Part shown: positions 25,023 to 39,506 of the stretch, in pieces | Numbering within the stretch: the first letter of the stretch is position 1 | Layout: each line of letters starts with the position of its first letter | Notes under the pieces: model-generated | The model's database searches: none | Seen by the model: the letters and a program-made list of their open reading frames with translations, nothing else | What the model was told of the DNA's origin: nothing | NCBI GenBank assembly: GCA_028288505.1 | Contig: JAQBNN010000047.1 | Location: 1-43,487 of the forward strand | Source of the DNA: Segetibacter sp. | Lineage (GTDB): Bacteria > Bacteroidota > Bacteroidia > Chitinophagales > Chitinophagaceae | Length of the DNA: 43,487 nucleotides | Reading direction: 5' to 3' | Translations under genes and position numbers: made by a program

Positions 25023-25066
25023 ATGATACCGATCAGAATAATTTAAAAACATACTCTTCATCTTTG
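25023..25066 (+). promoter_or_regulatory. Predicted Crp/Fnr-type operator and promoter for the acetyl-CoA hydrolase/transferase gene
   Basis: The palindrome ATGATACCGATCAG (25023-25036) contains an exact TGA-N6-TCA core with its centre at 25029.5. The promoter-like element CATCTTTG (25059-25066, one base off TAnnTTTG) ends 36.5 bases further on, the class II spacing also seen for hemN and the proximal ccoI site. The start codon follows the final G after 4 bases, so the transcript may be leaderless, putting the operator centre at about -41.5. Confidence 0.72.
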
Positions 25067-25070
25067 CAGT

Positions 25071-26348
25071 ATGATGAACCCAAAATACAGTACAGCAACA
25101 CAAGCCGTTCAATGTGTAAAACCTGGTCACAGGGTATTTATCCATGGCAGTGCTGCTACCCCTGCTTTCCTCATACAGGCACTGCAGGATCGTCATAACG
25201 AGCTTAACAATGTTGAACTCGTTAGCATCACCAATATCGGCGATTTAAATTTCGATAAACCTGAATACAGGAAGAGCTTCTTTTTCAATTCCCTGTTCGT
25301 ATCTGCAAATACACGTAATGTCGCCAACAGTATCAACGGCGATTATGTACCGGTTTTCCTCAGCCAAATTCCCCAGTTATTTCGCAAGAAGATCTTGCCC
25401 GTTGATGTTGCACTTATCCAGGTGTCACCACCCGACAGGCACGGCTTCTGCTCCCTTGGCACCTCGGTCGACATTGCAAAGGCTGCAGTAGAAATGGCCG
25501 CCTTTGTGGTGGCACAGGTTAACCCAAAAATGCCCCGAACTCATGGCGACGGTTTTGTCCACGTAAACAAAATAGATTTTCTCGTACCACACGAAAGCGA
25601 GTTACCCGAAATTGATTATTCAACTAAAACAAGTGACGCCATTGTGCAAATAGGTAAGAACGTTGCTTCACTAATCGAAGACGGCGCAACCCTGCAACTA
25701 GGTATAGGCAGCATACCCGACCAGGTAATGCAGAACCTGTACAGTCATAAAAACCTTGGTATCCATACCGAAATGATGTCTGATGGAGTAATACCACTTA
25801 TTCAAAACGGCATCATCAACAACAGCTTAAAAAAATTAAATATTGGCCGTTCGGTAACAGGTTTTATGGCAGGCACTCGCAAACTATACGACTTTGTTGA
25901 TGACAACCCGCAAATAAGAGTAATGGATATTGCATATGTAAACGACACAAGTGTTATTAGGCAAAACCCAAAAGCTACTGCTATTAACAGTGCTATCGAA
26001 ATTGATTTAACCGGGCAGGTCTGCGCAGATTCAATTGGTACCTACCAGTTCTCGGGCATTGGTGGCCAAATGGATTTTATCCGTGGAGCTTCCCTCTCCG
26101 AAGATGGAAAACCTATTATAGCGCTGCCATCAACTACTTCCAAAGGTCTTTCCAGGATTGTGCCTTTTTTAAAAGAAGGTGCAGGTGTTGTTACTACACG
26201 AGGTCATGTACATTGGGTGGTTACAGAGTACGGCATCATTAATTTATTTGGAAAAAACCTCAAGCAGCGTGCTAAAGCCTTAATTGAAATTGCACATCCC
26301 GATCATCGTGAAGCACTCGATAAATCCTTCTACGAGCGTTTTAAATAA
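25071..26348 (+). CDS. Acetyl-CoA hydrolase/transferase family (CoA-transferase)
   Basis: A 425-residue cytoplasmic enzyme of the family that includes 4-hydroxybutyrate and succinyl-CoA:acetate CoA-transferases and acetyl-CoA hydrolase. Signs: the N-terminal CoA-transferase half (VQCVKPGHRVFIHGSAATP; VDVALIQVSPPDRHGFCSLG), the CoA-binding GIGSIPDQV (211-219), the catalytic glutamate Glu234 in GIHTEMMSDG, and the C-terminal VVTTRGHVHWVVTEYGI. It likely interconverts acetyl-CoA and acetate, conserving a CoA thioester when oxygen is scarce. ATG 25071 is followed by a second in-frame ATG at 25074. It is the first gene after the kinase and fusion regulator and carries a predicted operator of that system. 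Confidence 0.88.
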   Translation: MMNPKYSTATQAVQCVKPGHRVFIHGSAATPAFLIQALQDRHNELNNVELVSITNIGDLNFDKPEYRKSFFFNSLFVSANTRNVANSINGDYVPVFLSQIPQLFRKKILPVDVALIQVSPPDRHGFCSLGTSVDIAKAAVEMAAFVVAQVNPKMPRTHGDGFVHVNKIDFLVPHESELPEIDYSTKTSDAIVQIGKNVASLIEDGATLQLGIGSIPDQVMQNLYSHKNLGIHTEMMSDGVIPLIQNGIINNSLKKLNIGRSVTGFMAGTRKLYDFVDDNPQIRVMDIAYVNDTSVIRQNPKATAINSAIEIDLTGQVCADSIGTYQFSGIGGQMDFIRGASLSEDGKPIIALPSTTSKGLSRIVPFLKEGAGVVTTRGHVHWVVTEYGIINLFGKNLKQRAKALIEIAHPDHREALDKSFYERFK

Positions 26349-26846
26349 TTAAACTTCATGCTAACAAATAAGGCCGGTTATAGTACCAGCATTTATTTTT
26401 CATAGCATCATCGTTGCGTCGCAATCCTTTCATCGGCAAATCTTTTGGCATCAAACTTACATCAAGGCAACAAGCAACCAGCCTGATAATAAAAGATTAT
26501 AAACGTAAATAGGCAGAAATGAAAATCAGAGTTTTTACCTGACATCAGAAAAAAACGTTACGATAAAATACTGGTCGCCAAAATTCGAACACACCAAAAC
26601 CAAAAAATAAAATGAACCACGTAAATGAAATAGAGCATACTGAAGTACGAAAAAGCAATAGGCTGTAAATCATACAAAGGCACGTTATCGGTACTGTTGT
26701 AACTAATTTCATTTTCGGCTGATCTAAAATTTTCAGCTCTCTTCCATCAGTCTTGCCTTTTTTAGGTCACGACAAAATAAGCAAAGCAAAACATATATTT
26801 AAAAATGACCCTTTTGATGAAGTAAATAGCTTTAAGAGTATTTCTA
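26349..26846. other. Long intergenic region between convergent genes
   Basis: 498 bases between two convergent stops. It holds one dispersed-repeat copy (26398-26426), the short inverted pair CTGA-CA-TCAG (26538-26547) and otherwise AT-rich sequence. A 55-codon frame on the minus strand (26545-26712) has no family resemblance and is not called. No operator of the TGA-N6-TCA type is present. It may contain decayed sequence or an unrecognised RNA. Confidence 0.5.
26398..26426 (+). repeat. Dispersed intergenic repeat, short form (copy b)
   Basis: A 29-base unit beginning TTTCATAGCATCATCGTTGC and ending GTCGCAATC. It matches the minus-strand copy at 39292-39320 in 27 of 29 positions. It shares CATCGTTGCGTCGCA with the longer variant I but lacks the CTCTTGTAC end. 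Confidence 0.8.
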
Positions 26847-27143
26847 TTAACCTTGCGTAAGTAAACACAAGCTATCCTCCAAAGCCTCAACAGAGTGCAT
26901 AACATTTACAGGAATATCAATCTGGTCAAACGTTTCAAGTTCAGTTAGACTTTCACCCTGCCTATATTTCACCCTTCCTGTTATAACAGTAAGTTTAGAA
27001 GGTAAGTGGGCAGTGTGTTCTTTAAGTCTCATTCCCATTTTAAAACCAATAACTAGTACTTTAAAATGCTCTCCTTTGTGCAAAACTTTTGCTACTGGGT
27101 TGTTTGCAGTTTCTAATTGCTCGTTAACTTCTCTTATTGTCAT
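26847..27143 (-). CDS. Small cupin-domain protein
   Basis: A 98-residue single-domain cupin. The first cupin motif is recognisable in the sequence GMRLKEHTAHLPSKLTVITG, with His and Glu in place, and the second around FDQIDIPVNVMHSVEALEDS. No signal peptide. It lies 32 bases downstream of the uncharacterised gene at 27176-27565 on the same strand, so both are probably read from the operator-carrying promoter at 27623-27688. Small cupins of this kind bind a metal or small ligand; enzymatic role cannot be stated. The convergent neighbour is the CoA-transferase gene. Confidence 0.75.
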   Translation of the reverse strand: MTIREVNEQLETANNPVAKVLHKGEHFKVLVIGFKMGMRLKEHTAHLPSKLTVITGRVKYRQGESLTELETFDQIDIPVNVMHSVEALEDSLCLLTQG

Positions 27144-27175
27144 TATTCCTTGTATCCTCGTAATGCATTTATATT

Positions 27176-27565
27176 TTAATAGGAAGAAGCCATTTCCGAA
27201 CTAATAAATTCTCCTGCAGAGTTTTGGTTTTCTAAAGTCCATCCCTCAGTAACAGAAATAACGTTCCAAACGTTACCAGATTTTCTAAATACCTGCACTA
27301 TCACTCCCAGTGTGTGTTGGAGGTCGTGAGAAATGTCTGACACCGTTCTGTTGCTATTGATATCAAGTTTCTGGGGAACACCTACATTTGCTATCTGCTT
27401 CAACGCGGTGCTGTTATCAATCTTAGCACTTCTAAGAGTCTTCGCGGTATTATCAGTTTGAAGAAATTCAATTTTCAGGAACGGATAACGGGCAGAGAAT
27501 GCACCCTGGATGTCTTTCAAGAGACTCTCATTGTGTATTAATATTTCCTTATTATTCGTGTCCAT
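27176..27565 (-). CDS. Uncharacterised 129-residue protein in the predicted oxygen regulon
   Basis: I do not recognise the family. The protein is soluble, without signal peptide or membrane segment and without cysteine or obvious metal motif. Visible stretches: ESLLKDIQGAFSARYPFLKI near the N-terminus, a central VGVPQKLDINSNRTVSDISH, and a predicted beta-rich end LGVIVQVFRKSGNVWNVIS followed by VTEGWTLENQNSAGEF. Coding character is supported by co-direction with hemN and the cupin, and by an exact TGA-N6-TCA operator at the standard 58.5-base spacing upstream. Its company suggests a role in micro-oxic respiration or haem/metal handling. Confidence 0.7.
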   Translation of the reverse strand: MDTNNKEILIHNESLLKDIQGAFSARYPFLKIEFLQTDNTAKTLRSAKIDNSTALKQIANVGVPQKLDINSNRTVSDISHDLQHTLGVIVQVFRKSGNVWNVISVTEGWTLENQNSAGEFISSEMASSY

Positions 27566-27622
27566 AATTAGTTCGCTTTTACAATATCTTCTCTTTTTCC
27601 ATTAATTACTTAATGCTTCGTT

Positions 27623-27688
27623 CAAAGGTCATATTTGTAGATTTCCTTTTCTAATACTACCGTCACAAGGATTTATGATTTTCGTCAT
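27623..27688 (-). promoter_or_regulatory. Predicted Crp/Fnr-type operator and promoter for the 27565-26847 gene pair
   Basis: On the minus strand the palindrome ATGACGAAAATCAT (27675-27688; arms ATGA and TCAT are exact complements, core TGA-N6-TCA) has its centre at 27681.5. The promoter-like element GACCTTTG (27623-27630, one base off TAnnTTTG) ends 58.5 bases downstream. That is the same distance as at ccoI, ccoS, fixH and yceI. The leader to the start codon at 27565 would be about 50 bases. Confidence 0.7.
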
Positions 27689-27701
27689 GCTTGTATCTCA
27701 A

Positions 27702-29081
27702 CTAAATGCCTTTGCTAAACAATTGCTTTGCCATTGCTGGTTTAATTCTTTGCAGGTAGAGATCAAATGCACTGCAAATATTCCTAATGAAGTAGTGGCC
27801 TACCGCCGTAACGGTACAATCATCCTCATTAAACTGTACAAGCCCATCTTCCTGCAAACCTTTTAAAAATGGAAAGGAGCACTGCCTGAGGGTCGCCAAC
27901 TCGGTATCATTAAACTTAGTATAACCTCTACAACTAATATTTAAGATATGTCTACGAAAAAGAAGGTCTTCTTCACTTAAAATAAATCCTTTTTTTATAG
28001 GCAGTGTTACCGCGTTAATTAATTTATAGTAATCATGAAGTGTCTTCTCATTTTGTGCAAACCCAATTCCTACATCACTTATGCTCGATACACCTAGCCC
28101 AAACAGCATACCAGAATGTTGGGTAGTGTAACCCATAAAATTTCGATGTAGGCTACCAGCTGTGCGGGCCTTATATAATTCGTCGTGTGGTAATGCAAAG
28201 TGGTCCATCCCTATATCTGTATAACCTTTGCTCATCAAAAGCTCTTTTCCTTTCACATACAATGCTACCTTCTCTGTTGCGCAAGGCAGGTCGTTTTCAT
28301 CGAACAACCGTTGTCCCTTACTCGTCCAGGGAACATGCGCATAGCTGTAAAAAGCTATCCTGTCCGGCATAAGCCCGGTTACTTTTTTAATGGTGGTTTC
28401 AATGCTACTAATGGTTTGTAAAGGCAGGCCGTAGATCAGGTCAAAATTTACTGATGTAAATCCAACACTTCTTGCGTTCTCGGTAGCCCGTTTTACATTT
28501 TCAAAAGGCTGAATGCGGTTAATTACTTTTTGAACTTCCGGATCATCATCCTGTACACCATAACTTATTCGTCTAAAGCCGTTGTTGTATAATACCTGGA
28601 GTTGTTCAATAGTAGTATTATTAGGGTGTCCTTCAATGCTAAATTCATGCATTGGGTGAACAATGCTATCGTGTAGGAAGACTTCTAATATTCTTTGAAG
28701 GTTTACGTCTGAAAAGAAGGTAGGCGTTCCACCACCAAGGTGTAGTTCCCTAATAACGGGTACCTCGTGCATTAATTGGCGGTACAGCTTCCATTCCATT
28801 TCCAATGCCTTTATATATGGCTCTTCTACTCCGTGGTTCGTTGTAATTTTTTTGTTGCATCCGCAATAGGTACACAAACTCTCGCAAAACGGTAAGTGAA
28901 TGTACAGGCTAATTCCACCTTTACTGTTTTCAATCTTAAACTTGTTGGCTACAATATTTTTCCAATCTTTCACTTCCATCGTTTCTTTCCAAAAAGGCAC
29001 CGTTGGGTAGCTTGTATACCTAGCAACAGGTTGGTTGTATTTTTCTATCAGCGTCTGATCAACCTTGTTCTGCTCATTCAT
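27702..29081 (-). CDS. hemN: Oxygen-independent coproporphyrinogen III oxidase
   Basis: A 459-residue radical-SAM enzyme that decarboxylates coproporphyrinogen III to protoporphyrinogen IX without oxygen, a haem biosynthesis step. The iron-sulfur motif is C66-x3-C70-x2-C73 (HLPFCESLCTYCGCNKK), preceded by the family start RYTSYPTVPFW, with GGGTPTF and FDLIYGLPLQT further on, and the HemN C-terminal domain (YTKFNDTELATLRQ). Length matches true HemN rather than the shorter HemW. It is divergent from ccoI and shares its control region; haem supply for the cbb3 oxidase at low oxygen is the obvious link. A predicted operator lies at 29116-29129. Confidence 0.93.
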   Translation of the reverse strand: MNEQNKVDQTLIEKYNQPVARYTSYPTVPFWKETMEVKDWKNIVANKFKIENSKGGISLYIHLPFCESLCTYCGCNKKITTNHGVEEPYIKALEMEWKLYRQLMHEVPVIRELHLGGGTPTFFSDVNLQRILEVFLHDSIVHPMHEFSIEGHPNNTTIEQLQVLYNNGFRRISYGVQDDDPEVQKVINRIQPFENVKRATENARSVGFTSVNFDLIYGLPLQTISSIETTIKKVTGLMPDRIAFYSYAHVPWTSKGQRLFDENDLPCATEKVALYVKGKELLMSKGYTDIGMDHFALPHDELYKARTAGSLHRNFMGYTTQHSGMLFGLGVSSISDVGIGFAQNEKTLHDYYKLINAVTLPIKKGFILSEEDLLFRRHILNISCRGYTKFNDTELATLRQCSFPFLKGLQEDGLVQFNEDDCTVTAVGHYFIRNICSAFDLYLQRIKPAMAKQLFSKGI

Positions 29082-29085
29082 GCGA

Positions 29086-29129
29086 CGAAATTAAAATCAC
29101 TTCAAGCACAAAAAAATGACATTGGTTAG
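29086..29129 (-). promoter_or_regulatory. Predicted Crp/Fnr-type operator and promoter for hemN
   Basis: Read on the minus strand, CTAACCAATGTCAT (29116-29129) has one exact half-site (TCA) and one with a mismatch (TAA for TGA). Its centre, 29122.5, lies 36.5 bases from the end of the element TAATTTCG (29086-29093, one base off TAnnTTTG). The start codon begins 5 bases past that final G, exactly as for the CoA-transferase gene, so a leaderless message is likely. Weaker in sequence than the other sites but supported by two matching distances. Confidence 0.55.
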
Positions 29130-29177
29130 GACTCTAGAAACTGTGGCAGCACAATATGTGTGCAAGCTAATAAAAAG

Positions 29178-29243
29178 CTGATTACAGTCATGTATTTAGG
29201 TGAAGCCAATCATGCGTCACCACTTCAACGGCTTTTAGTTTTG
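29178..29243 (+). promoter_or_regulatory. Double predicted Crp/Fnr-type operator and promoter for ccoI
   Basis: Two exact TGA-N6-TCA palindromes, CTGATTACAGTCAT (29178-29191) and GTGAAGCCAATCAT (29200-29213), have centres 22 bases apart. The promoter element TAGTTTTG (29236-29243) is a full match to TAnnTTTG, and the two centres lie 58.5 and 36.5 bases before its last G. This one promoter therefore shows both distances used elsewhere in the window. The message would have a leader of about 22 bases before ATG 29270. Confidence 0.78.
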
Positions 29244-29269
29244 CCTACATAGCATACAAGCCTTCTTTT

Positions 29270-31660
29270 ATGATAGATCAAACACAACAAAGGGCCTGTT
29301 TTCATTGTGGCGAAAATTGTGGTAAACATCCTATTGTTGCACAGGAAAAATATTTTTGTTGCGAAGGCTGTAAAATGGTGTATGAGATCCTAAATCACAA
29401 TGGCTTGTGTAATTACTATGAAATTTCCCTGAACCCCGGTACGAGCAGGAAGATCGAAATAAGGATGGATAAGTTTTCTTTTTTAGACGATGAAAACATT
29501 AAAAACTCTCTCGTTGCTTATTCAGATGGAAAACAAACACACATTACTTTTTACCTGCCGCAAATACATTGCAGTAGCTGTTTATGGTTGTTGGAAAACC
29601 TTCACCGGTTAAACGAGCATATTATCTCGAGCAAAGTAAATTTTGCTTGTAAAGAAGCAGATATCATTTTCAACAACAACAAAACTTCTTTACGGCAAGT
29701 TGCAGAACTGCTCACCAACATAGGCTACGAACCTTACATCAGCTTCAGCAATATGAAGGAAGCCAAACCACAGCTTGATAAATCAAAAATTTATAAGTTG
29801 GGTGTTGCTGGTTTCTGTTTTGCCAACATCATGCTACTCAGCTTTCCCGAATACCTCAGTATCGATATAAAAGAAAACAGGTTAGTTACTTTGTTCCGTT
29901 ACCTTAACCTTGCACTAAGTCTTCCTGTTTTTTTCTATAGCGCTTCCGAGTTTTATATAAGTGCCTGGAAAAGCCTTAAACACCGTTTTCTAAATATTGA
30001 TGCACCAATCGTTCTTGCGGTTATTGTAACCTTCGGTAGAAGTTTATACGAAGTGCTGACCGCAAGAGGTGGTGGCTATTTCGATAGCATGAGCGGCATT
30101 GTTTTCTTCATGCTGGTTGGCAGGGTATTGCAGGATAAAACATACCAGCAGTTAAGCTTCGATCGCGATTATACTTCCTATTTTCCCATTGCGGTAACAA
30201 GGGTAGGTAATGATAAAGAAGAAACAGTTGCCCTACCCGATATTAAATTAAATGATACGCTTTTAATTCATGCGCACGACCTCATTCCTGCAGACGGAAT
30301 TCTTACACGCGGAACTGCTTTAATTGATTATAGTTTTGTAACAGGTGAAAGTGCACCAATTCAAAAGGAGATGGGTGAGATTGTGTATGCAGGAGGAAAA
30401 CAAATTGGCGCTAACATCGAAATCCTTGTTATAAAGGAAGTAGCACAAAGCTATCTAACAAAGCTTTGGAACCGCAGCGAATTTAAAGACGATAAGAAAA
30501 AGGAACGACATTCTTTTGTGCACCTGTTAAGCCGTTATTTTACCTGGATAGTTTTTACCATTGCTATTGCAACAGCTCTCTATTGGTACTTCACCAATCC
30601 ATCAAAGGTTTGGACGAGCATTACCGCAGTTCTTATTATAGCCTGCCCTTGTGCTTTGTTGCTTAGCAATACCTTCACCAATGGTAATATTTTAAGACTG
30701 CTCAGCAGAAGCAAACTATACCTAAAGAATGCACAAACCATTGAAGATATTGCACACATCAATCATATCGTTTTCGACAAGACCGGTACACTAACCGACC
30801 GGCAGTTTGAAGAACCCGAGTATATTGGAATGCCGCTGTCCAACCTACAAAAAAAGCAGATCGGCACTCTTGCAGCACAATCGTCGCATCCAATGAGTAA
30901 GGCAATTGCTGCTTCGTTGGTAGAAAAAGTGAATGAAAAAGTAATCGCTTTTTCAGAAGTGCCTGGAAGCGGTATTGAAGGAATTGTTGATGGCGATTTA
31001 ATTAGTATTGGCTCTATAAAATTCTTAAAAGGAACAAACGATCATTCCCAGGAAACGTCAGTTTTTGTTTCAATAGAAGAAAAGATTTATGGTAAGTTCA
31101 TTTTCAAAAATCATTACCGCACCGATGTTCCTTTAATGATTACACAACTTCAAAAGCACTATGATTTGTCTGTGTTAAGTGGCGACAATCACGGAGAGAA
31201 GAAGACACTTAAAAAGATGTTTGGCGGCGAGTATCAATTGCTATTTCGCCAAAAGCCCGAGGACAAGTTGGAAGTGATAAAACAATTGCAGAAACAGGGA
31301 AAAAAAGTGTTGATGTTAGGAGATGGGCTAAACGATGCAGGCGCTTTAAAGCAGGCAGATGTTGGCATTGCAGTTAGTGATAACACCAACAATTTTACCC
31401 CGGCAAGCGATGCTATAATTGATGCAGGAAAAATCTCTATACTTCCAAAATTTTTACGGCTTTGTATTATTAATAAGCGTATTGTTATTGCAAGTTTTAT
31501 TATTTCAATTGTATATAATATTATCGGGATCTACTTTGCGGTTCAAGGCAACTTATCTCCTATGATTGCTGCCATCTTAATGCCTGCAAGTAGTCTTTCT
31601 ATTTTGCTCGTCACTTTCGGGTGTAGTAACCTTGCCGCTACTCGTTTAGGGCTTAAGTAG
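29270..31660 (+). CDS. ccoI: Copper-translocating P1B ATPase for cbb3 oxidase assembly
   Basis: A 796-residue membrane ATPase of the FixI/CcoI type, which supplies copper for the binuclear centre of cbb3 oxidase. The N-terminal cysteine-rich domain (CFHCGENCG, FCCEGCKMVYEIL) marks this branch and precedes a heavy-metal domain with C101-x2-C104 (IHCSSCLWLL). Then come paired membrane helices, the phosphatase loop (DYSFVTGESAP), the transmembrane CPC motif (459-461), phosphorylation Asp503 (DKTGTLTD) and the hinge MLGDGLNDAGALKQADVGIA. Divergent from hemN; downstream lies a repeat and a decayed gene before ccoS. Two predicted operators precede it. Confidence 0.93.
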   Translation: MIDQTQQRACFHCGENCGKHPIVAQEKYFCCEGCKMVYEILNHNGLCNYYEISLNPGTSRKIEIRMDKFSFLDDENIKNSLVAYSDGKQTHITFYLPQIHCSSCLWLLENLHRLNEHIISSKVNFACKEADIIFNNNKTSLRQVAELLTNIGYEPYISFSNMKEAKPQLDKSKIYKLGVAGFCFANIMLLSFPEYLSIDIKENRLVTLFRYLNLALSLPVFFYSASEFYISAWKSLKHRFLNIDAPIVLAVIVTFGRSLYEVLTARGGGYFDSMSGIVFFMLVGRVLQDKTYQQLSFDRDYTSYFPIAVTRVGNDKEETVALPDIKLNDTLLIHAHDLIPADGILTRGTALIDYSFVTGESAPIQKEMGEIVYAGGKQIGANIEILVIKEVAQSYLTKLWNRSEFKDDKKKERHSFVHLLSRYFTWIVFTIAIATALYWYFTNPSKVWTSITAVLIIACPCALLLSNTFTNGNILRLLSRSKLYLKNAQTIEDIAHINHIVFDKTGTLTDRQFEEPEYIGMPLSNLQKKQIGTLAAQSSHPMSKAIAASLVEKVNEKVIAFSEVPGSGIEGIVDGDLISIGSIKFLKGTNDHSQETSVFVSIEEKIYGKFIFKNHYRTDVPLMITQLQKHYDLSVLSGDNHGEKKTLKKMFGGEYQLLFRQKPEDKLEVIKQLQKQGKKVLMLGDGLNDAGALKQADVGIAVSDNTNNFTPASDAIIDAGKISILPKFLRLCIINKRIVIASFIISIVYNIIGIYFAVQGNLSPMIAAILMPASSLSILLVTFGCSNLAATRLGLK

Positions 31661-32270: not shown

Positions 32271-32336
32271 ATGATAACAATCATCTTTCGTGTTGAGGAC
32301 AGTCAACCCTATCGGCTTATACTCAACCTACTTTTG
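32271..32336 (+). promoter_or_regulatory. Predicted Crp/Fnr-type operator and promoter for ccoS-ccoNO
   Basis: The palindrome ATGATAACAATCAT (32271-32284, core TGA-N6-TCA, outer bases also paired) has its centre at 32277.5. The promoter element TACTTTTG (32329-32336) is an exact TAnnTTTG, its last G 58.5 bases away. The leader to the ccoS start would be about 14 bases. The operator is almost identical to the one before yceI (ATGATAAC shared). Confidence 0.78.
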
Positions 32337-32354: not shown

Positions 32355-32516
32355 ATGAGCGCAATTTTCATACTACTAATAGTAAGCATTACAATAGCTG
32401 CAGGTTTTCTTGTAGCCTTCCTGTGGACTGTAAAAGCTGGGCAGTACGATGATGAGATCAGCCCCCCTATAAGAATATTATTTGATGAGGCCCCAACACT
32501 AAAAAATAAAAAATAA
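32355..32516 (+). CDS. ccoS: cbb3-type cytochrome oxidase assembly protein CcoS
   Basis: A 53-residue membrane protein: one N-terminal transmembrane helix (MSAIFILLIVSITIAAGFLV) and the family signature AFLWTVKAGQYDD followed by PPIRILFDE. CcoS is needed for insertion of haem and copper cofactors into the cbb3 catalytic subunit. The frame is open upstream to 32271, but that extension covers the predicted operator and promoter and is unlike the family, so ATG 32355 is the start. It ends 6 bases before ccoNO. Confidence 0.9.
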   Translation: MSAIFILLIVSITIAAGFLVAFLWTVKAGQYDDEISPPIRILFDEAPTLKNKK

Positions 32517-32522: not shown

Positions 32523-34721
32523 ATGTTAGACCTATCAGCCCCAACGGGAATAGAAGTGAGAGTTCGAACGCCTGAAAGAACGCAAATTGAGGTTGAGCGC
32601 TTTTTTTACGACAACAACATTGTTAAGTTGTTTGTTTATGCTACCCTTTTTTGGGGAGTTATTGGTATGCTTGCAGGCTTACTTGCTTCTATCCAACTTT
32701 TTTACCCTTTAGCCAATTTCGACTTTGCGCCTACCACCTTTGGTAGGGTACGGCCAGTACATACAAACGCAGTTATTTTTGCTTTTGTTGGTAACGGTAT
32801 TTTTATGGGTGTTTACTACTCGTTGCAACGTCTTTGTAAGGCAAGAATGTTTAGCGATAAACTTAGTAAAATTCATTTTTGGGGATGGCAGGCGATAATT
32901 GTTGCGGGTGCAATTACTTTGTTACTTGGTTATACATCTGGTAAAGAATATGCAGAGCTCGAATGGCCTATTGACATTGCAATAACTGTTGTATGGGTAC
33001 TTTTCGGCATCAACATGTTAGGTACTATTATTAAGAGAAGAGAGAGCCACTTGTATGTTGCTATCTGGTTTTATATAGCTACCTGGGTAACGGTTGCAAT
33101 GCTTCACATTGTAAACTCGTTTGAAATTCCGGTTACCATGTTTAAAAGCTATAGCTGGTATGCAGGTGTACAAGATGCTTTAGTGCAGTGGTGGTACGGG
33201 CATAATGCAGTAGCGTTTTTCCTTACAACCCCTTACCTGGGCTTGATGTATTACTTCTTACCAAAGGCTGCCAACAGGCCGGTGTTTAGCTACCGTTTAT
33301 CAATCATTCACTTTTGGGCGTTGATCTTTATTTATATATGGGCTGGTCCTCACCACTTACTATATACCGCGCTGCCGGACTGGGCACAGAGTCTTGGTGT
33401 AGTGTTTAGTATTATGCTGATAGCGCCAAGCTGGGGGGGCATGTTGAACGGCTTGTTTACACTTAGAGGTGCATGGGATAAAGTAAGAGAAGATCCTATT
33501 TTAAAATTCTTAGTTGTTGCAGTTACTTGTTATGGTATGGCGACATTTGAAGGGCCAATGCTTAGCTTAAAGAATGTAAACGCAGTTGCTCACTACACCG
33601 ATTGGATTGTTGCTCACGTACACGTGGGAGCATTAGGTTGGAACGGCTTCTTAACCTTTGGTGTTATCTATTGGATCATTCCAAAAATATTTAAAACAAA
33701 ACTTTACTCGACCAAACTTGCCAATACACACTTTTGGATAGGAACGATAGGCATTGTGTTATATGCCGTTCCTCTTTATTGGGCAGGCTTTACACAAAGT
33801 ATGATGTGGAAGACATTTACTGAAGAAGGTCAGTTAAAGTTCCAGTTTTTAGAAACTGTTACCAACATTCTTCCAATGTATATGACCAGGAGCCTTGGTG
33901 GAGCCTTATATCTTTCCGGTGTTTTTGTAATGGTTTATAACATTGTAAAAACAGTAAAGGGAGGTAGCCTTGTTCCTAACGAAGCGGCTGAAGCGCCTGC
34001 ATTGCCCAAGCAAATTGAAACACACGGTAAGCAACACTGGCATAGGTGGATAGAAAGAAGACCTGTTCAAATGTTGGTGTTTAGTTTAATCGCAGTGGGT
34101 ATTGGGGGTGTGCTCGAGATAGTTCCAACCTTCCTTATAAAAAGCAATATACCTACTATAACTTCTGTTAAACCATATACGCCGCTTGAGCTACATGGTC
34201 GTGATATTTATGTACGTGAAGGATGTTATACCTGCCACTCGCAAATGATCAGGCCTTTTAGAGACGAGGTAGCCCGCTATGGCGAGTATAGCAAAGCCGG
34301 TGAGTTTATCTACGACCATCCTTTCCAATGGGGAAGTAAGAGAACCGGTCCTGACTTAGCTCGTATCGGTGGTAAGTATCCTGACAGCTGGCATTACAAC
34401 CATATGATGGATCCACGTAGTATGTCGCCCGGTTCAATTATGCCTAACTATCCCTGGTTGATGGACGATAAGGTTGATACAACAATAACAGGTGCAAAAA
34501 TCAGGGCAATGCAAACCCTCGGTGTGCCTTATCCTGATGGTTACGATAAGCAGGCGAATACAGACCTTTTACAGCAAGCGAACAAGATAAAAGCTAGCCT
34601 TAAAAAAGATAAGCTTGAGGCATCAAACACAAGCGAAATAATTGCTTTGATTGCTTACATGCAGCGTGTAGGAACTGATATAAAAGCAGAACCTAAGCAA
34701 GCAGTTGCAGCGTTAAAGTAA
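32523..34721 (+). CDS. ccoNO: cbb3-type cytochrome c oxidase, fused subunits I and II
   Basis: A 732-residue fusion. The first 470 or so residues are CcoN, the catalytic haem-copper subunit with about 12 helices and the metal-binding histidines in ALVQWWYGHNAVAFFLTTPY, IWAGPHHLLYTALPDW and DWIVAHVHVGALGWNGFLTF. After a linker (VPNEAAEAPALPKQ) a new membrane anchor leads into CcoO, a monohaem cytochrome c with C568-x2-C571-H572 (EGCYTCHSQMIRPFRDE) and SMSPGSIMPNYPWLMDD holding the methionine ligand. The fusion is usual in Bacteroidota. It oxidises cytochrome c and reduces oxygen with high affinity while pumping protons. Translationally close to ccoS; separated from ccoQ by a 351-base repeat-bearing gap. 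Confidence 0.95.
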   Translation: MLDLSAPTGIEVRVRTPERTQIEVERFFYDNNIVKLFVYATLFWGVIGMLAGLLASIQLFYPLANFDFAPTTFGRVRPVHTNAVIFAFVGNGIFMGVYYSLQRLCKARMFSDKLSKIHFWGWQAIIVAGAITLLLGYTSGKEYAELEWPIDIAITVVWVLFGINMLGTIIKRRESHLYVAIWFYIATWVTVAMLHIVNSFEIPVTMFKSYSWYAGVQDALVQWWYGHNAVAFFLTTPYLGLMYYFLPKAANRPVFSYRLSIIHFWALIFIYIWAGPHHLLYTALPDWAQSLGVVFSIMLIAPSWGGMLNGLFTLRGAWDKVREDPILKFLVVAVTCYGMATFEGPMLSLKNVNAVAHYTDWIVAHVHVGALGWNGFLTFGVIYWIIPKIFKTKLYSTKLANTHFWIGTIGIVLYAVPLYWAGFTQSMMWKTFTEEGQLKFQFLETVTNILPMYMTRSLGGALYLSGVFVMVYNIVKTVKGGSLVPNEAAEAPALPKQIETHGKQHWHRWIERRPVQMLVFSLIAVGIGGVLEIVPTFLIKSNIPTITSVKPYTPLELHGRDIYVREGCYTCHSQMIRPFRDEVARYGEYSKAGEFIYDHPFQWGSKRTGPDLARIGGKYPDSWHYNHMMDPRSMSPGSIMPNYPWLMDDKVDTTITGAKIRAMQTLGVPYPDGYDKQANTDLLQQANKIKASLKKDKLEASNTSEIIALIAYMQRVGTDIKAEPKQAVAALK

Positions 34722-34733
34722 CCTATGTTTTAT

Positions 34734-34768: not shown

Positions 34769-34775
34769 CACCAGC

Positions 34776-35009: not shown

Positions 35010-35030
35010 GTACAAGTGAGTAACACAACG
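35010..35030 (-). repeat. Dispersed intergenic repeat, variant II (copy f)
   Basis: On the minus strand CGTTGTGTTACTCACTTGTA plus C, one base from the variant II consensus, preceded by AATTAAACAT (to 35040) as in copy i. It lies 42 bases before the ccoQ start. Confidence 0.82.
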
Positions 35031-35072
35031 ATGTTTAATTAATAACTAACAGTTCGCAAAATAATAGCACAC

Positions 35073-35246
35073 ATGAAATTTATAAACTACCTAGAAAATA
35101 TAACAGGAGTTGATGTGTACGCGATGACATCCTTCCTCATCTTCTTCGGCTTTTTTATAGTGATGACCCTGTGGGCATTACGCGCAGATAAGAAGTTGAT
35201 TGATGTATTAAGCAACCTACCATTAGACAACGACAATAATAACTAA
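35073..35246 (+). CDS. ccoQ: CcoQ-like small cbb3 oxidase subunit
   Basis: A 57-residue protein, MKFINYLENITGVDVYAMTS followed by one transmembrane helix (FLIFFGFFIVMTLWAL) and a charged tail RADKKLIDVLSNLPLDND. Size, single helix and position between ccoNO and ccoP fit CcoQ, a subunit that stabilises the oxidase. Sequence conservation in the family is low, so the call rests mainly on topology and synteny. Stop TAA at 35244-35246, 16 bases before ccoP. No TGA-N6-TCA operator precedes it, so it probably depends on read-through from ccoS-ccoNO. Confidence 0.82.
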   Translation: MKFINYLENITGVDVYAMTSFLIFFGFFIVMTLWALRADKKLIDVLSNLPLDNDNNN

Positions 35247-35262
35247 TTGTAAAATTTTAAGA

Positions 35263-36426
35263 ATGAGACTTCGTAAAACATTTGAATGGAAAGGGATGGG
35301 ATTAACCACTGCCATCGCTTTACTTGCATCAGCAAATGTATTTGCAGCAGGCCCCAAGTTAGCATCGGAAGCAAGCAACCCACTAGCAATAATGTTATTG
35401 ATTGTGATAGTAGCGTTGGCACTTGTTATTGCGTTACTGGGGTATGTTTTATTGGGCGCCGCAGAAATAAATTTACAGAGAGCAAAAGATAAGCTATACA
35501 ATGCAAGCAAAGTAGCGCAGGCTACCTTGGTAATAACTTTTTGCTTGTTCTCTTCAGCAGTATTTGCAGCTGACGGAGCAGATGCTATAGCCACCGAAGT
35601 AGTAAGTACTACTATTAATTTGCTATCTAAATTCTCTTACTATACACTTCTATCAGTAGTAGGCTTAGAGGTTTTATTGATACTGGTAATGCTATGGCAG
35701 GTAAAGGCTTTATTAGCAAAAGAGAAGCTTGTAGTAGCAATTGTAGCACAGGAAGCAAAGCAACCGATTTGGCAGAAGTGGTGGGAGAAAATGAACAGCT
35801 TTAAACCTGCTCATGTTGTAGGCGACACTGGCCATAACTACGACGGCATACGCGAACTGGACAACAAGTTGCCGCCCTGGTGGCTGTATGGTTTTTATGC
35901 TTGTATAGTGTTTGCCGTTGTTTATATGTATCGTTTCGAAGTAGTGCATTCTGCCCCGTCTACACGCCAGGAGTATGTAATTGCAATGGAGCAAGCTGAA
36001 GTAGAAAAAGAGGAATACCTGAAACACGCAGCAAACAAAGTAGATGAAAATAGCGTGACTTTATTAACTGAAGCAAGCGCACTAGGAGAAGGAAAAAAAT
36101 TATTTGGAACTGCATGTGCACCATGTCACGGTCCTGATGGGCAAGGCGTAGTTGGACCAAACTTGACGGACGACTTCTGGTTGCATAAAGGTGGTGTAAA
36201 GGATATCTTCAAAAGCATAAAATACGGCGTACCTGAAAAAGGAATGAAGTCGTGGAAAGATGATTTTAGCCCGGTGCAGATAGCTCAAATTGCGAGTTAT
36301 ATTAAATCAATAAGCGGTACTAAGCCGGCTAATGCAAAAGAGCCCCAGGGTGATTTATTCAAGGAGGACGCTTCTACGGCAACAGTAGATTCAACGAAGC
36401 CTGATAATAAGTTAGCGGCGAATTAA
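35263..36426 (+). CDS. ccoP: cbb3-type cytochrome c oxidase subunit III, monohaem
   Basis: A 387-residue membrane cytochrome. The conserved CcoP core starts near residue 185 (GDTGHNYDGIRELDNKLPPW, then the anchor WWLYGFYACIVFAVVYMYRF) and carries one haem site C285-x2-C288-H289 (ACAPCHGPDGQG) with the probable ligand Met328 (KGMKSW). Proteobacterial CcoP has two haems; this one has a single site. The first 150 residues hold two look-alike blocks, each a hydrophobic signal-like stretch ending VFAA(G/D) (about 13-30 and 88-104) followed by a transmembrane helix, which suggests an internal duplication or use of an internal start. It begins 16 bases after ccoQ and ends 2 bases before ccoG. Confidence 0.92.
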   Translation: MRLRKTFEWKGMGLTTAIALLASANVFAAGPKLASEASNPLAIMLLIVIVALALVIALLGYVLLGAAEINLQRAKDKLYNASKVAQATLVITFCLFSSAVFAADGADAIATEVVSTTINLLSKFSYYTLLSVVGLEVLLILVMLWQVKALLAKEKLVVAIVAQEAKQPIWQKWWEKMNSFKPAHVVGDTGHNYDGIRELDNKLPPWWLYGFYACIVFAVVYMYRFEVVHSAPSTRQEYVIAMEQAEVEKEEYLKHAANKVDENSVTLLTEASALGEGKKLFGTACAPCHGPDGQGVVGPNLTDDFWLHKGGVKDIFKSIKYGVPEKGMKSWKDDFSPVQIAQIASYIKSISGTKPANAKEPQGDLFKEDASTATVDSTKPDNKLAAN

Positions 36427-36428
36427 AC

Positions 36429-37847
36429 ATGAGAACAGTAATAGAAAAGAACGCGGTTAAGATCGAGGATAGCTTTCGCGATCATATTGCCACAGTTGAT
36501 GATGATGGTAAACGAAAGTGGATATATGCAAACAAACCAAAGGGTAAGCTGTACAAGTTGCGTACTTATCTAAGCCTTTTTTATTTTGCTGCTTTCTTTA
36601 GCATACCCTTTATTAAAATTGATGGACGGGCGCTGTTTTTATTTAATGTTACCACTGCCAAGTTTATTTTATTTGGTAAAGTATTTTGGCCACAAGATTT
36701 TTTTATACTGGGGCTAGGTATGATTGCTTTCATTTTATTTATCATTCTTTTTACTGCTGCTTTTGGCCGGCTGTTTTGTGGGTGGGCCTGTCCGCAAACG
36801 AACTTCATGGAAATGATGTTTCGTAAAGTGGAGTATTGGATAGAAGGCGATGCACCACGCCAAAAAATGCTGTCTAAAGGTCCTTGGACAGCCGAAAAAA
36901 TATTGAAGAAAGGAGGGAAGCATCTAGCGTTCTTCATGCTCTCATTTATAATTGCAAACTTCTTCCTGGCGTATGTTATAGGTATAGAAGAGTTAGAGAA
37001 AATCGTTACAGCGCCTATGTCGCGGCATGCAACAGGGTTCTTAATGTTGTTAATATTCAGCGGCGTTTTTTATGGCGTTTATGCTTTTTTTAGAGAGCAG
37101 GTTTGTACAGTTATTTGTCCTTACGGCCGATTGCAAAGTGTGCTGCTCGATAAAAATTCTATGATTGTTGCTTATGATTATAAGCGTGGAGAAGCGAGGG
37201 GCATTGCGAAGAAAAGTGAAGAAAATATTTATGGCGATTGCATTAATTGCTTTGCCTGCGTAAAAGTTTGTCCAACAGGTATTGATATTCGCGATGGTGT
37301 ACAAATGGAATGCGTTGGTTGTACTGCCTGCATTGATGCCTGTAATAATATTATGGATCGAATAGGTAAGCCACAGGGTTTAATAAGGTATGCAAGCGAA
37401 AATAGTATTGCTACGGGCGAGCCGTTAAAGTATACATCAAGGATGAAGATGTATACTGCTTTGTGCAGCCTTGTGGTAGTTATATTAGCTGCTATTTTAT
37501 TTACCCGCAAAGACGTTAATGCTACTATAATGCGTACCCCAGGCATCCTTTACCAGGAAAGAGGCGCTGATAGTATCTCCAACTTATATAACATTAAGCT
37601 TGCCAACAAAACAATCAACGTCATTCCTCTTAGCATTCAATTGGAAGATGGAAATGGTAAGATTGAAATTATAGGCAGGCAAGTAATTGATATAGCAAAA
37701 GAAGGGCAGGGCAGTGGATCTTTTTTCGTGGTACTTCCCAGGAGTGCGGTGCACGATCGTAAGACAGAATTAAAGCTGGCGTTGTATGCTGGCAATAATA
37801 AAATTGCAGTTGTGAAAACAAACTTCTTAGGACCTGTAAGCGATTAG
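36429..37847 (+). CDS. ccoG: cbb3 oxidase maturation ferredoxin CcoG (RdxA/FixG)
   Basis: A 472-residue membrane iron-sulfur protein that reduces Cu(II) for insertion into cbb3 oxidase. Membrane segments include LSLFYFAAFFSIPFIKIDG and FILFIILFTAAFGRLF, followed by the conserved CGWACPQTNFMEMMFRKVE; further on, CTVICPYGRLQS and two ferredoxin-type clusters (GDCINCFACVKVCPTGID and MECVGCTACIDACN). The C-terminal 120 residues form the Ig-like FixG domain (NIKLANKTINVIPLSIQLED). It starts 2 bases after ccoP. FixH follows after a 230-base gap with its own predicted promoter. Confidence 0.94.
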   Translation: MRTVIEKNAVKIEDSFRDHIATVDDDGKRKWIYANKPKGKLYKLRTYLSLFYFAAFFSIPFIKIDGRALFLFNVTTAKFILFGKVFWPQDFFILGLGMIAFILFIILFTAAFGRLFCGWACPQTNFMEMMFRKVEYWIEGDAPRQKMLSKGPWTAEKILKKGGKHLAFFMLSFIIANFFLAYVIGIEELEKIVTAPMSRHATGFLMLLIFSGVFYGVYAFFREQVCTVICPYGRLQSVLLDKNSMIVAYDYKRGEARGIAKKSEENIYGDCINCFACVKVCPTGIDIRDGVQMECVGCTACIDACNNIMDRIGKPQGLIRYASENSIATGEPLKYTSRMKMYTALCSLVVVILAAILFTRKDVNATIMRTPGILYQERGADSISNLYNIKLANKTINVIPLSIQLEDGNGKIEIIGRQVIDIAKEGQGSGSFFVVLPRSAVHDRKTELKLALYAGNNKIAVVKTNFLGPVSD

Positions 37848-37901
37848 TTTGTACAAAATAAAAAAGATTTTTTGAGCGAGCATTTAGTCTTTACTCATCA
37901 G

Positions 37902-37922
37902 CGTTGTGTCACTCACTTGTAC
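37902..37922 (+). repeat. Dispersed intergenic repeat, variant II (copy g)
   Basis: CGTTGTGTCACTCACTTGTA plus C, identical in its core to copies a and i; 54 bases after the ccoG stop. Confidence 0.85.
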
Positions 37923-37999
37923 TTTTAGTTTCAATACGCATCTTTTTCAAGCTTTAAGTTCTATACGTTCGTTCACCACAACCGTTAGCTTTTTAAAAG

Positions 38000-38065
38000 C
38001 TGACCAACGTCAGGTTTTGACGTGACTATTGTTTACTTATAACGCTTATTCATATAATAATTTTG
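38000..38065 (+). promoter_or_regulatory. Predicted Crp/Fnr-type operator and promoter for fixH
   Basis: CTGACCAACGTCAG (38000-38013) is a palindrome whose arms CTGA and TCAG are exact complements, with its centre at 38006.5. The promoter element TAATTTTG (38058-38065) is an exact TAnnTTTG, ending 58.5 bases on. Transcription would start about 38070, shortly before the ATGs at 38078 and 38087. This places fixH in its own transcription unit, apart from ccoNOQPG. Confidence 0.76.
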
Positions 38066-38077
38066 CTTTTAATTAAA

Positions 38078-38521
38078 ATGCCATGTATGACCTGGGGAAA
38101 TAAACTTGTATTTGTATTTATTGCCTTTGCAGCGTTAATGGGAACATTAGTTTATAAGTGCATGCAGCAAAACTTCGAGCTGGTATCAAAGGATTATTAT
38201 AATGAAGAGTTGAGATACCAGGATAAGATTGATGGTACCAATAACGCCAATAAGTTGAGTAATGTAAAAGTTGATTATTCTGGTGACGAATTACATATTC
38301 ATTTACCAAAAGAGCTAAACGGTTTAGCCCTTACCGGCGATGCTTTGTTTTACTGTGCTACTAATTCTAAGTTTGATAGAAAGTTACCACTTCAGGTAAA
38401 CGATGAAGGTTTGATGAATGTCGGACTTCGTATATTGGCAAAGACTAATTACATTCTTAAAATAAGTTGGCAGGTAGGCAACGAGCAATATTATAACGAA
38501 CAAAGTGTAGATCTTAAATGA
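38078..38521 (+). CDS. fixH: FixH family protein
   Basis: A 147-residue membrane-anchored protein with one N-terminal helix (TWGNKLVFVFIAFAALMGTL) followed by the family feature ELVSKDYYNEELRYQDKIDG and an immunoglobulin-like periplasmic domain. FixH works with CcoG and CcoI in cbb3 oxidase copper handling. ATG codons at 38078 and 38087 are both possible; a TTG at 38063 lies inside the promoter element and is rejected. The last bases (ATGA, 38518-38521) overlap the next gene's start, so the two are translationally coupled. Confidence 0.86.
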   Translation: MPCMTWGNKLVFVFIAFAALMGTLVYKCMQQNFELVSKDYYNEELRYQDKIDGTNNANKLSNVKVDYSGDELHIHLPKELNGLALTGDALFYCATNSKFDRKLPLQVNDEGLMNVGLRILAKTNYILKISWQVGNEQYYNEQSVDLK

Positions 38522-39222
38522 GCTTGCAGCTTATTATATCAGCTTTTGCGATGGGGTTGCTAAGCAGTTTCCATTGTGTAGGTATGTGCGGTGCCATTGC
38601 ATTTTCATTACCTACTCAGCATCTTTCACCTGCTCGTAAAGCAGTTGGCATTTTGCTGTATAATGTCGGCAGGGTTCTTACCTACACCTTTTTAGGTGTT
38701 ATCTTCGGCGTTGCAGGAAGACAGCTTTACCTGAGTGGCTTTCAGCAATGGTTTTCTATTATAGCAGGTATGTTCATACTTGTTATTGTAATTCAATCTG
38801 CGTTTCATTCACCAGTGTTCCATTTGCCTGGCTTTAAAAAGTTGAATCTTTTTGTTCAAAAACTTATTGGTTCTTTTTTAATGAAACCTTCTAATGGTAA
38901 TATGCTGTTGCTGGGTATGGCTAATGGTTTACTGCCGTGCGGTCTTATATACTTAGCCATCACAGGTGCATTAGCTGCGGGATCAATAGCCGGCGGTGCT
39001 ATCTTCATGGCCTCATTTGGTATAGGCACATTTCCTGCGCTCTTTCTTCTTTCTTACTTCGGGTTTCTTATCAAACTCTCTACACGCAATACTATCAAAA
39101 GGGTAGTCCCTTATTTTGTCGCCAGCATGGCCCTATTACTTATCCTCCGCGGAATGAATTTAAATATTCCATACCTAAGCCCGCTTTTAGGGTCAAATGC
39201 TGAAATTATTTCCTGCCATTAA
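38518..39222 (+). CDS. CcoH-like membrane protein, TauE/SafE (DsbD_2-like) family
   Basis: A 234-residue polytopic membrane protein with about six helices. The N-terminal motif MGLLSSFHCVGMCGAIAFSL is the signature of the UreH/DsbD-like transmembrane family often annotated as sulfite exporter TauE/SafE; a second cysteine motif is GLLPCGLIYLAITGALA. Genes of this type regularly follow FixH in Bacteroidota cbb3 clusters and are thought to move copper or a thiol carrier for oxidase assembly rather than sulfite. Its start overlaps the fixH stop by 4 bases. Confidence 0.85.
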   Translation: MSLQLIISAFAMGLLSSFHCVGMCGAIAFSLPTQHLSPARKAVGILLYNVGRVLTYTFLGVIFGVAGRQLYLSGFQQWFSIIAGMFILVIVIQSAFHSPVFHLPGFKKLNLFVQKLIGSFLMKPSNGNMLLLGMANGLLPCGLIYLAITGALAAGSIAGGAIFMASFGIGTFPALFLLSYFGFLIKLSTRNTIKRVVPYFVASMALLLILRGMNLNIPYLSPLLGSNAEIISCH

Positions 39223-39291
39223 ACAGCTCTGCCGCTGGTTAGCAACTTACTGGTTTACGCCTGCAGATGCCATTTGTACTACAGATGAAGT

Positions 39292-39320
39292 GATTGCGAC
39301 GCAACGATGACGCCATGAAA
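39292..39320 (-). repeat. Dispersed intergenic repeat, short form (copy h)
   Basis: On the minus strand TTTCATGGCGTCATCGTTGC then GTCGCAATC, 27 of 29 positions identical to copy b (26398-26426). It sits in the 332-base gap between the CcoH-like gene and yceI; the remainder of that gap is AT-rich leader and the yceI promoter. Confidence 0.8.
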
Positions 39321-39440
39321 TACAAGGTTGGTATTATATAAAGAGTAATCTTAGAGTTTTCTTCGTTTTACTGACTACTTGTGGTTTACCTGGTCTTTAT
39401 TCCTCTCATCTTATTCTCTCCACGCTTTTGCTTTAACAAC

Positions 39441-39506
39441 ATGATAACTGTCATATTTTCTAAACCTTTTCGTCATGCTTTAACGTACTGCCGACGGGTA
39501 GCTTTG
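39441..39506 (+). promoter_or_regulatory. Predicted Crp/Fnr-type operator and promoter for the YceI-porin unit
   Basis: ATGATAACTGTCAT (39441-39454) has exact ATGA/TCAT arms and its centre at 39447.5. The promoter element TAGCTTTG (39499-39506) is an exact TAnnTTTG, its last G again 58.5 bases away. The leader to ATG 39555 would be about 44 bases. Confidence 0.76.

Follow-up and report, generated by a model that had tools for sequence, protein, structure and literature searches.

What controls the genes of the cbb3 oxidase and their neighbours in Segetibacter sp. is the question raised by contig JAQBNN010000047.1 (assembly GCA_028288505.1), which was analysed as a single window of 43,487 nucleotides, one contig of the 307 in a genome of 4.07 Mb whose assembly is 94.7% complete. 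In the gaps between these genes, palindromic TGA-N6-TCA cores precede TAnnTTTG promoter boxes at two distances only, 36.5 or 58.5 bases from the centre of the core to the last G of the box. This arrangement is a real and strict promoter grammar of Bacteroidota low-oxygen genes. We consider it rather probable that the cores are operators of a CRP/FNR-type activator acting at such promoters, the likely reader in this genome being a protein in which a phospho-receiver is fused to a CRP-type DNA-binding half.

The sigma-A box TAnnTTTG occupies positions -12 to -5 in Flavobacterium psychrophilum (Guerin et al. 2021, PMC9723704). Because the last G of the box is thus -5, the two distances place the operator centres at -41.5 and -63.5. 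The window has seven boxes served by nine sites, of which four lie at the shorter distance of 36.5 and five at 58.5. On the plus strand, the acetyl-CoA hydrolase/transferase-family gene has the core TGATACCGATCA (25024-25035) in its -41.5 slot and the -7 box CATCTTTG (25059-25066), which matches five of the six fixed letters. Two promoters are read from the minus strand. That of orf129 combines the core TGACGAAAATCA (27676-27687) at -63.5 with a degenerate -41.5 slot, TGACGGTAGTAT (27654-27665), that retains its distal half, and a five-of-six box, GACCTTTG (27623-27630); that of hemN has no upstream site, and ahead of another five-of-six box, TAATTTCG (29086-29093), its -41.5 slot holds the one-mismatch core TAACCAATGTCA (29117-29128), an instance of a recurrent TAA-N6-TCA variant. 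The remaining promoters, again on the plus strand, have boxes that match TAnnTTTG in full. The ccoI promoter is a tandem of TGATTACAGTCA (29179-29190, at -63.5) and TGAAGCCAATCA (29201-29212, at -41.5) before the box TAGTTTTG (29236-29243), and that of ccoS-ccoNO contains TGATAACAATCA (32272-32283, at -63.5) and the exact core TGAGGACAGTCA (32294-32305, centre 32299.5, at -41.5) before the box TACTTTTG (32329-32336). At fixH the core TGACCAACGTCA (38001-38012, at -63.5) is followed by a degenerate -41.5 slot with its distal half retained, TGACTATTGTTT (38023-38034), and the box TAATTTTG (38058-38065); at yceI the core TGATAACTGTCA (39442-39453, at -63.5) is followed by a degenerate slot that keeps its promoter-proximal TCA half, ACCTTTTCGTCA (39464-39475), and the box TAGCTTTG (39499-39506).

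The first-pass annotation of this DNA had listed eight site centres and seven boxes, with seven exact cores and one mismatch at hemN, and with four full boxes (ccoI, ccoS, fixH, yceI) and three that differ by one base, and all of these were found in place. Its tally of three distances of 36.5 and five of 58.5 was short by one, since the core TGAGGACAGTCA was missing from its list; its statement that no other distance occurs stands. Because this extra exact site lies 36.5 bases from the ccoS box, which ends at 32336, the ccoS promoter is a tandem like that of ccoI. If transcription starts five bases past the last G of the box, the transcript of the CoA-transferase gene (start codon at 25071) is predicted to be leaderless, beginning with the A of the ATG, and the same rule predicts a leaderless transcript, also from the A of the ATG, for hemN (start codon at 29081, minus strand).

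The number of cores is by itself ordinary: the window contains 16 exact TGA-N6-TCA cores against 11.1 expected and, because 11 of 100 shuffled sequences reach 16, this count is not unusual. The same annotation had judged seven exact cores in these short gaps, all phased, to be far beyond chance; what is unusual is where the cores lie. Each of the eight exact cores between genes has, in one of four phased slots, a box that matches five or more of the six letters, as against 4.3% of positions drawn at random between genes (3,555 in all; binomial p ~1e-11), and none of the eight exact cores inside genes is phased. Across the whole genome, 22 exact cores are paired with an exact TAnnTTTG at gaps of 19-49 bases, and 13 of these pairs fall at the two phased gaps (p ~1e-10); outside the window the figure is seven of 16 (p ~3e-5). 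The reversed pattern, which gave 45 matches in the own-genome scan against 22 for the true one, differs from it in composition and is a weaker control, and for this reason the argument rests on the histogram of gaps and on controls with the phase shifted. Phasing in the window and in the genome is confirmed as real. That it is a product of chance or composition, an explanation favoured only by the ordinary number of cores, is refuted by these counts together with the 56 exact tandems in the phylum and the unrelated spacers described below, and we regard it as practically negligible.

The spacing, whose conservation in orthologous promoters the first-pass annotation had made the touchstone of its proposal, is conserved before the cco genes of other Bacteroidota. 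In a sample of 80 named ccoNO loci (1.52 Mb), exact cores and boxes separated by gaps of 0-100 bases form 166 pairs, 50 of them at a gap of 45 bases (N45, equal to 58.5 from the core centre to the last G) and 39 at a gap of 23 (N23, equal to 36.5), followed by six at N46 and four at N24. Of the 80 loci, 42 have one or more exact pairs at these two phased gaps (N23, N45), and every other gap occurs in five loci at most; further helical turns (N12, N34, N56 and N67) are represented by no pair at all in these loci. Mean spacer identity among the loci is 0.28 and 0.36 for the two gaps, and no two spacers exceed 0.8, so that the spacers are unrelated rather than near-copies, and the spacing was kept while the intervening sequence changed. 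When promoters were scored gene by gene, with the window included, a threshold of at least 20 of 24 and the phase shifted by up to 12 bases as the control, a phased promoter was found before ccoNO in 38 of 78 sequences, before ccoS in 30 of 72 (often one promoter shared by the two), before ccoI in 17 of 59 and before hemN in five of 23, the shifted-phase controls for these four genes having means of 0-0.2 and maxima of 0-2. Among the sequences scored, none was found before ccoP or the DsbD_2 gene, and ccoG has one in 75.

In the phylum as a whole, the exact tandem was found in 30 of 395 genomes, with 56 matches and none for the reversed control, and was not found in the other 365; this strict form is common in certain families, including that of the window, where 10 of 14 sampled genomes have it, and rare in others. 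Among 149 genomes of the order, there are 654 N23 pairs versus 92 for the reversed control and 408 N45 pairs versus 113, the reversed controls of both scans being of the weaker kind. A variant was seen in genomes of one family, f25 (G334:C1:2676264-2676370, G249:C80:300977-301051, G231, G274 and G444), where the N23 site is kept and a second site lies 32-35 bases further up, not 22; in G334 this variant pair serves two divergent promoters, and the 32-35 spacing is possibly family-specific.

The two slots are 22 bases apart and hence on the same face of the helix. CRP and FNR act from a centre at -41.5 in class II activation, and the usual class I position in Escherichia coli is -61.5. The predicted operator centres fit class II at -41.5 and a class I-like position at -63.5, so that the interpretation of the 22-base difference given by the first-pass annotation, class II and class I activation, holds in outline, with the amendments that the upstream slot is not at -61.5 and that the unit is often a tandem. 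The 80 loci contain 64 phased promoters; both sites are exact in 24 of these, the upstream site alone in 25 and the downstream site alone in 15. In the upstream-only promoters the downstream slot still averages 4.5 of six core letters versus a background of 1.5 (s.d. 0.57). As these promoters mostly retain a weakened -41.5 site, a common promoter form combines a strong site at -63.5 with a graded one at -41.5. The commonest weakened site is TAA-N6-TCA, with 15 occurrences at N23, 0.67 per other gap and two at N45; in 14 cases it accompanies an exact upstream site, before ccoS-, ccoN-, ccoI- and D-lactate dehydrogenase-like genes and one unplaced gene (names given by eye), in several genera, about half of the cases being Sphingobacteriaceae-like. 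A TTG at -33 is rare: at each offset of 15-29 bases before the box, it is present in 0-2 of 50 N45 promoters.

The predicted targets in the window's own genome include the cbb3 oxidase, HemN and CcmE/F-like genes, and in relatives also NosZ- and NirK-like genes. Had the phased motif been common before unrelated genes, this would have spoken against its meaning, but it is not: the genome scan yielded only seven further exact phased pairs, two at genes of a clear low-oxygen type and the others at genes that are plausible or unassigned. These seven sites lie, by gene names assigned by eye, before a CcmE/CcmF-like pair and before D-lactate dehydrogenase-like, alcohol dehydrogenase-like (about 600 bases away), aldo/keto reductase-like and HYC_CC_PP-like genes, before a gene for a 698-aa protein with a ferredoxin-like gene after it, and near a contig end without a readable gene; only the CcmE/F-like and D-lactate dehydrogenase-like genes are clearly of the low-oxygen type. 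The gene for the 698-aa protein (C175:15590-18600, L241), whose site is 179 bases ahead of it, is a candidate new low-oxygen gene. All 20 exact tandem promoters listed for other genomes of the window's family were also followed to the next gene: CcoS-like in five cases, YceI-like in three, cytochrome c and then NosZ-like in two, and in one case each a 164-aa gene and then CcoI, HemN, a universal stress protein, a NirK-like protein, an Rrf2-type regulator (then ScdA-like) and a CRP-like regulator, the remaining four being unplaceable or seemingly unrelated (one TrmD-like). Ten of the 20 precede cco, haem or nitrogen-oxide genes and four more precede YceI or universal-stress genes, so that the targets, though not all fit, seem largely to match a low-oxygen and denitrification regulon. 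In one genome a single site pair (G113:C1:1378362-1378457; L237, L238) lies between two divergent promoters, those of a cytochrome c/NosZ-like operon and of an Rrf2-type regulator, and is exactly phased to both; similar divergent pairs are present in G031 and G135. In F. psychrophilum, cbb3 is strongly induced by oxygen limitation (PMC9723704).

Who reads these sites in Segetibacter is suggested by the genes next to them. Positions 23920-24975 (plus strand) encode a protein with receiver, cNMP-binding and Crp-type HTH domains (Pfam), and 22631-23923, directly upstream on the same strand, a sensor histidine kinase with PAS, HisKA and HATPase domains. The fusion is the only protein of the genome above the HTH_Crp_2 cut-off; a cNMP domain also occurs in two further proteins, of which one, encoded on contig C184, is distantly CRP-like. 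All 81 fusions from the loci examined (repeats included, as the locus sets overlap in genomes; 68 distinct CRP halves were used for a tree) have the phospho-acceptor Asp52 and also Lys104 in the receiver. A recognition-helix Glu and Arg are invariant in all 81, as they are in 18 standalone relatives. These two residues are the ones that read TGA. The kinase is directly upstream of the fusion in 27 of 29 and 28 of 30 loci of two locus sets. The PAS domain of the window kinase matches FixL crystal-structure sequences with E=2e-17, both the haem-binding His and the distal Arg being aligned, and among 71 adjacent kinases (four short ones of 75 were dropped) the haem His is aligned in 67 and a PAS-like stretch surrounds the His in 66. 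Within 10 kb of ccoNO the fusion is found in 21 of the 80 loci, with the kinase adjacent in 19 of those. The CRP half of the fusion has no Cys in 41 of 81 and never more than three, and an Fe-S reading was set aside on account of the incomplete cysteine set; a cAMP-CRP reading was set aside as well, the cyclic-nucleotide residues being degenerate when compared by eye with those of CRP. The likely reader in this genome would be the fusion, which unites the receiver of FixJ with the DNA-binding half of FixK in one protein.

The fusion is not the sole reader of the code, because genomes without it use the same code. In 49 genomes, which stand behind 50 of the 80 cco loci, the fusion was found in 37 (G572 being scored as such from a match to residues 1-272) and not in 12. 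At a looser score, phased promoters are present in 28 of the 37 loci from fusion genomes and in eight of the 12 from genomes without it, with 76 and 11 hits, respectively, versus 0-4 and 0-2 at ten shifted phases. An exclusive link between the code and the fusion regulator was not borne out by these eight loci, and this idea was abandoned. The 18 standalone relatives comprise ten from the 12 genomes without the fusion (one of them with a second copy), three from order-sample genomes without it, and the rest from genomes that have it. An N-terminal CxxC is present in 15 of them and absent from L208, L209 and L213, of which L209 and L213 come from genomes without the fusion. Five alignment columns have Cys in 14-17 of the 18, and at four of these the fusions have it in 0, 0, 2 and 15 of 81, the fifth column being an alignment overlap with a receiver cysteine. 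Those with CxxC are presumably FNR-like Fe-S proteins. In the tree the fusions form one group with full support that adjoins the standalones; the outgroup, the C184 protein, is on a very long branch, and the tree does not show the direction from standalone to fusion. In the 149 order genomes, where the regulator class was assigned by hand from the matches listed, the mean numbers of N45/N23 pairs, uncorrected for genome size and completeness, are 3.4/5.0 with the fusion (83 genomes), 2.5/5.8 with a standalone only (29), 1.7/1.7 with no relative among the matches listed (15) and 1.2/2.0 where matches were weak or unlisted (22), compared with 0.5-0.8 per gap for the reversed control; the highest means belong to the genomes in which a fusion or a standalone was found.

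Computation shows the phasing and its conservation, the gene set, the domain architecture, the residues that would bind haem and accept the phosphate, and the recognition residues common to FNR-like relatives; binding, activation, control by oxygen and the pairing of kinase and regulator we infer. When oxygen falls, the adjacent haem-PAS kinase would lose O2 and Asp52 of the fusion would be phosphorylated, upon which the fusion would dimerise or become active. The activator dimer would sit on TGA-N6-TCA at -41.5, at -63.5, or at both on one face of the helix, and recruit sigma-A polymerase to promoters that have the TAnnTTTG box and rarely a TTG at the -33 spacing. The active fusion would thereby switch on genes for the cbb3 oxidase and its assembly, for HemN, for the maturation of cytochrome c and for fermentation.

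Several observations weigh against this proposal or limit its reach. In 38 of the 80 ccoNO loci, there is an exact pair at neither gap, and fixH is phased in one of 60 sequences, the window's own. Nine of the 37 loci from fusion genomes lack a phased promoter at the looser score, genomes without the fusion use the code too, and where no relative was detected the mean is still 1.7 pairs per gap, above the 0.5 of the reversed control. The upstream slot at -63.5 departs from -61.5, the class I optimum in E. coli. The distal Arg is retained in only 40 of 71 kinases, and five of the 71 lack a PAS-like stretch bearing the His, so that one of the 67 aligned His residues is probably a chance alignment. 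At one FNR-like column a Cys is retained in 15 of the 81 fusions, and the genome encodes a second CRP-family protein, that on C184. A phased promoter is rare before the kinase (2 of 19) or the fusion gene (1 of 22), which gives little support to autoregulation.

The code could be real and yet be read in Segetibacter by the C184 protein or by an undetected FNR, the fusion controlling something else. The C184 protein is CRP-like, 192 aa long, with an E-T-L-S-R recognition helix; genomes without the fusion do use the code, and a standalone FNR could be missing from an assembly that is 94.7% complete. However, C184 falls below the HTH_Crp_2 cut-off, its very long branch lies apart from both the fusions and the FNR-like proteins, no standalone relative is among the matches listed for this genome at E 1e-20, and the fusion adjoins the targets and has the recognition residues of the standalones from genomes without it, all of which makes this explanation unlikely. 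A signal other than O2, be it NO, CO, redox state or a cyclic nucleotide, with the haem-PAS as a different sensor, seems to us improbable as well: NosZ-, NirK- and ScdA-like genes follow the tandem promoters of relatives and the distal Arg was not found in 31 of 71 kinases, but the targets include cbb3, HemN and lactate dehydrogenase-like genes, the haem His is aligned in 67 of 71, and the window PAS keeps both the His and the Arg of FixL. Computation cannot separate activation from repression, so the sites might instead bind a CRP-family repressor or serve repression in oxygen. Yet both positions are upstream of the box and neither covers it, a TTG at -33 is rare, as expected of activator-dependent promoters, and many targets are of the low-oxygen kind; repression is accordingly the reading we find very improbable.

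Two oxygen sensors seem to serve a single promoter grammar, because genomes without the fusion mostly carry a CxxC FNR-like protein with the same recognition residues and many have the same spacing. Tentatively, and with the balance in our own estimate lying very slightly against it, activation by the fusion may be extended to a joint reading in which a single fixed Bacteroidota grammar (-41.5 and -63.5 before TAnnTTTG) would be served by two interchangeable oxygen sensors, the FNR-like cysteine protein and a FixJ-FixK fusion of single origin with its FixL-type kinase. The sensor would have been exchanged with the operators in register, and the class II slot would be graded (TGA, TAA, half-site) to tune individual promoters.

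The closest likeness is to FixL-FixJ-FixK of rhizobia and Caulobacter, where a haem-PAS kinase, a phospho-receiver and a CRP-family output on TTGA-type palindromes before cco genes are described (PMC4999443). The window kinase has the proximal His and the distal Arg of FixL, and among the 25 NCBIfam matches listed for the fusion the FixK model ranks first of the CRP type, far below its cut-off. FixJ is a receiver joined to a LuxR/GerE-type HTH. The output of the fusion is instead cNMP_binding and HTH_Crp_2, and, unlike FixK, a separate CRP-family protein without a receiver, it has a fused one. Receiver and CRP output are thus one protein here, with no step in which FixJ transcribes fixK; the operators moreover stand in fixed slots before TAnnTTTG, and the outer bases of the core are not fixed. 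The hFixL-FxkR-FixKf pathway of Rhizobium etli and R. leguminosarum also places a FixL-type kinase above a CRP-type regulator, whereas FxkR, which acts on fixKf, is a regulator in its own right and has a distinct motif, GTTACA-N4-GTTACA (PMC4999443). The TGA-N6-TCA palindrome and the recognition-helix Glu and Arg are those of an FNR/FixK-type regulon. With FNR and FnrN, the Fe-S oxygen sensors, the system has the core and similar targets in common, and 15 of the 18 standalones have CxxC, most with further cysteines, but the fusion has a receiver instead and the Fe-S cysteine set is missing. FnrN and FixK of Alphaproteobacteria read one TTGA-type motif (PMC4999443), which the joint reading with two sensors resembles, but with the cascade collapsed into one protein. 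To class I/II promoters of E. coli CRP and FNR the likeness would be the predicted -41.5 site with a second position on the same face; the differences are -63.5 in place of -61.5 (N43, its equivalent, has one pair in the 80 loci versus 50 at N45), a single enriched upstream position in cco loci, frequent tandems and the Bacteroidota promoter.

The words CRP and FNR are absent from the main text of the F. psychrophilum study (PMC9723704), and a CRP/FNR survey that includes Flavobacteriales and Saprospiraceae, in the portion of it consulted, places their proteins near the carbon-sensing MalR group and does not describe a phased code (PMC8510549). A search of titles and abstract openings in the open-licence literature found no description of the phased code or of the fusion, which is weak evidence of absence. 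The papers covered have little on operators of oxygen control in this phylum, and the first-pass annotation had itself called published operator knowledge for Bacteroidota low-oxygen genes sparse and the code perhaps undescribed. What appears new is a variant, the tandem with two slots before TAnnTTTG together with a FixJ-FixK-like fusion that reads it; activation of the CRP/FNR kind is known.

The genes themselves form a cbb3 neighbourhood whose ccoNO has its best-matching named relatives in Chitinophagaceae and other Bacteroidota. By Pfam, the kinase and the fusion are followed by the acetyl-CoA hydrolase/transferase-family gene (25071-26348, plus strand; NCBIfam match below its cut-off) and two small genes without assignment, one of them orf129 (27176-27565, minus; no Pfam match, a predicted target by its phased promoter), then by the HemN-like radical-SAM gene (27702-29081, minus; Radical_SAM, the name hemN being that of the first-pass annotation) and the copper P-type ATPase gene ccoI (29270-31660, plus); the acetyl-CoA hydrolase/transferase-family, HemN-like and ccoI genes are predicted targets as well. 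The cbb3 operon, on the plus strand, begins with ccoS (32355-32516; assigned from position and open frame, with tblastn matches in 74 of 81 sequences, the 80 loci and the window) and continues with ccoNO (32523-34721), a fusion of the oxidase subunits with COX1 and FixO domains, ccoP (35263-36426; FixP_N and Cytochrome_CBB3) and ccoG (36429-37847; FixG_C, Fer4_18). Next come the predicted target fixH (38084-38521, plus; Pfam FixH), a DsbD_2-domain gene, the yceI-family gene (39555-40148, plus; Pfam YceI), likewise a predicted target, two unassigned genes and a universal stress protein gene. The gene after yceI (40192-41553) has no Pfam or NCBIfam match, and because in three genomes of the family (L226, L232, L233) its relatives, with 61-71% identity, come directly after the phased yceI gene, it is probably part of the yceI operon. 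The 10-mer TTGCGTCGCA occurs at 26414, 31702, 32211, 34778 and 39295, five copies versus 0.09 expected, in both orientations and always in gaps around cco genes, as a short interspersed repeat.

A rule that is strict to the base would make low-oxygen regulons, such as those of cbb3 and N2O-reductase genes, predictable from sequence in many uncultured genomes. It also offers a direct test of the idea that evolution can exchange the sensor of a transcription factor and leave its targets wired as before. The receiver-CRP fusion, if our reading of it is true, would be a compact design in which phosphorylation, instead of an Fe-S cluster or cAMP, controls the CRP fold.

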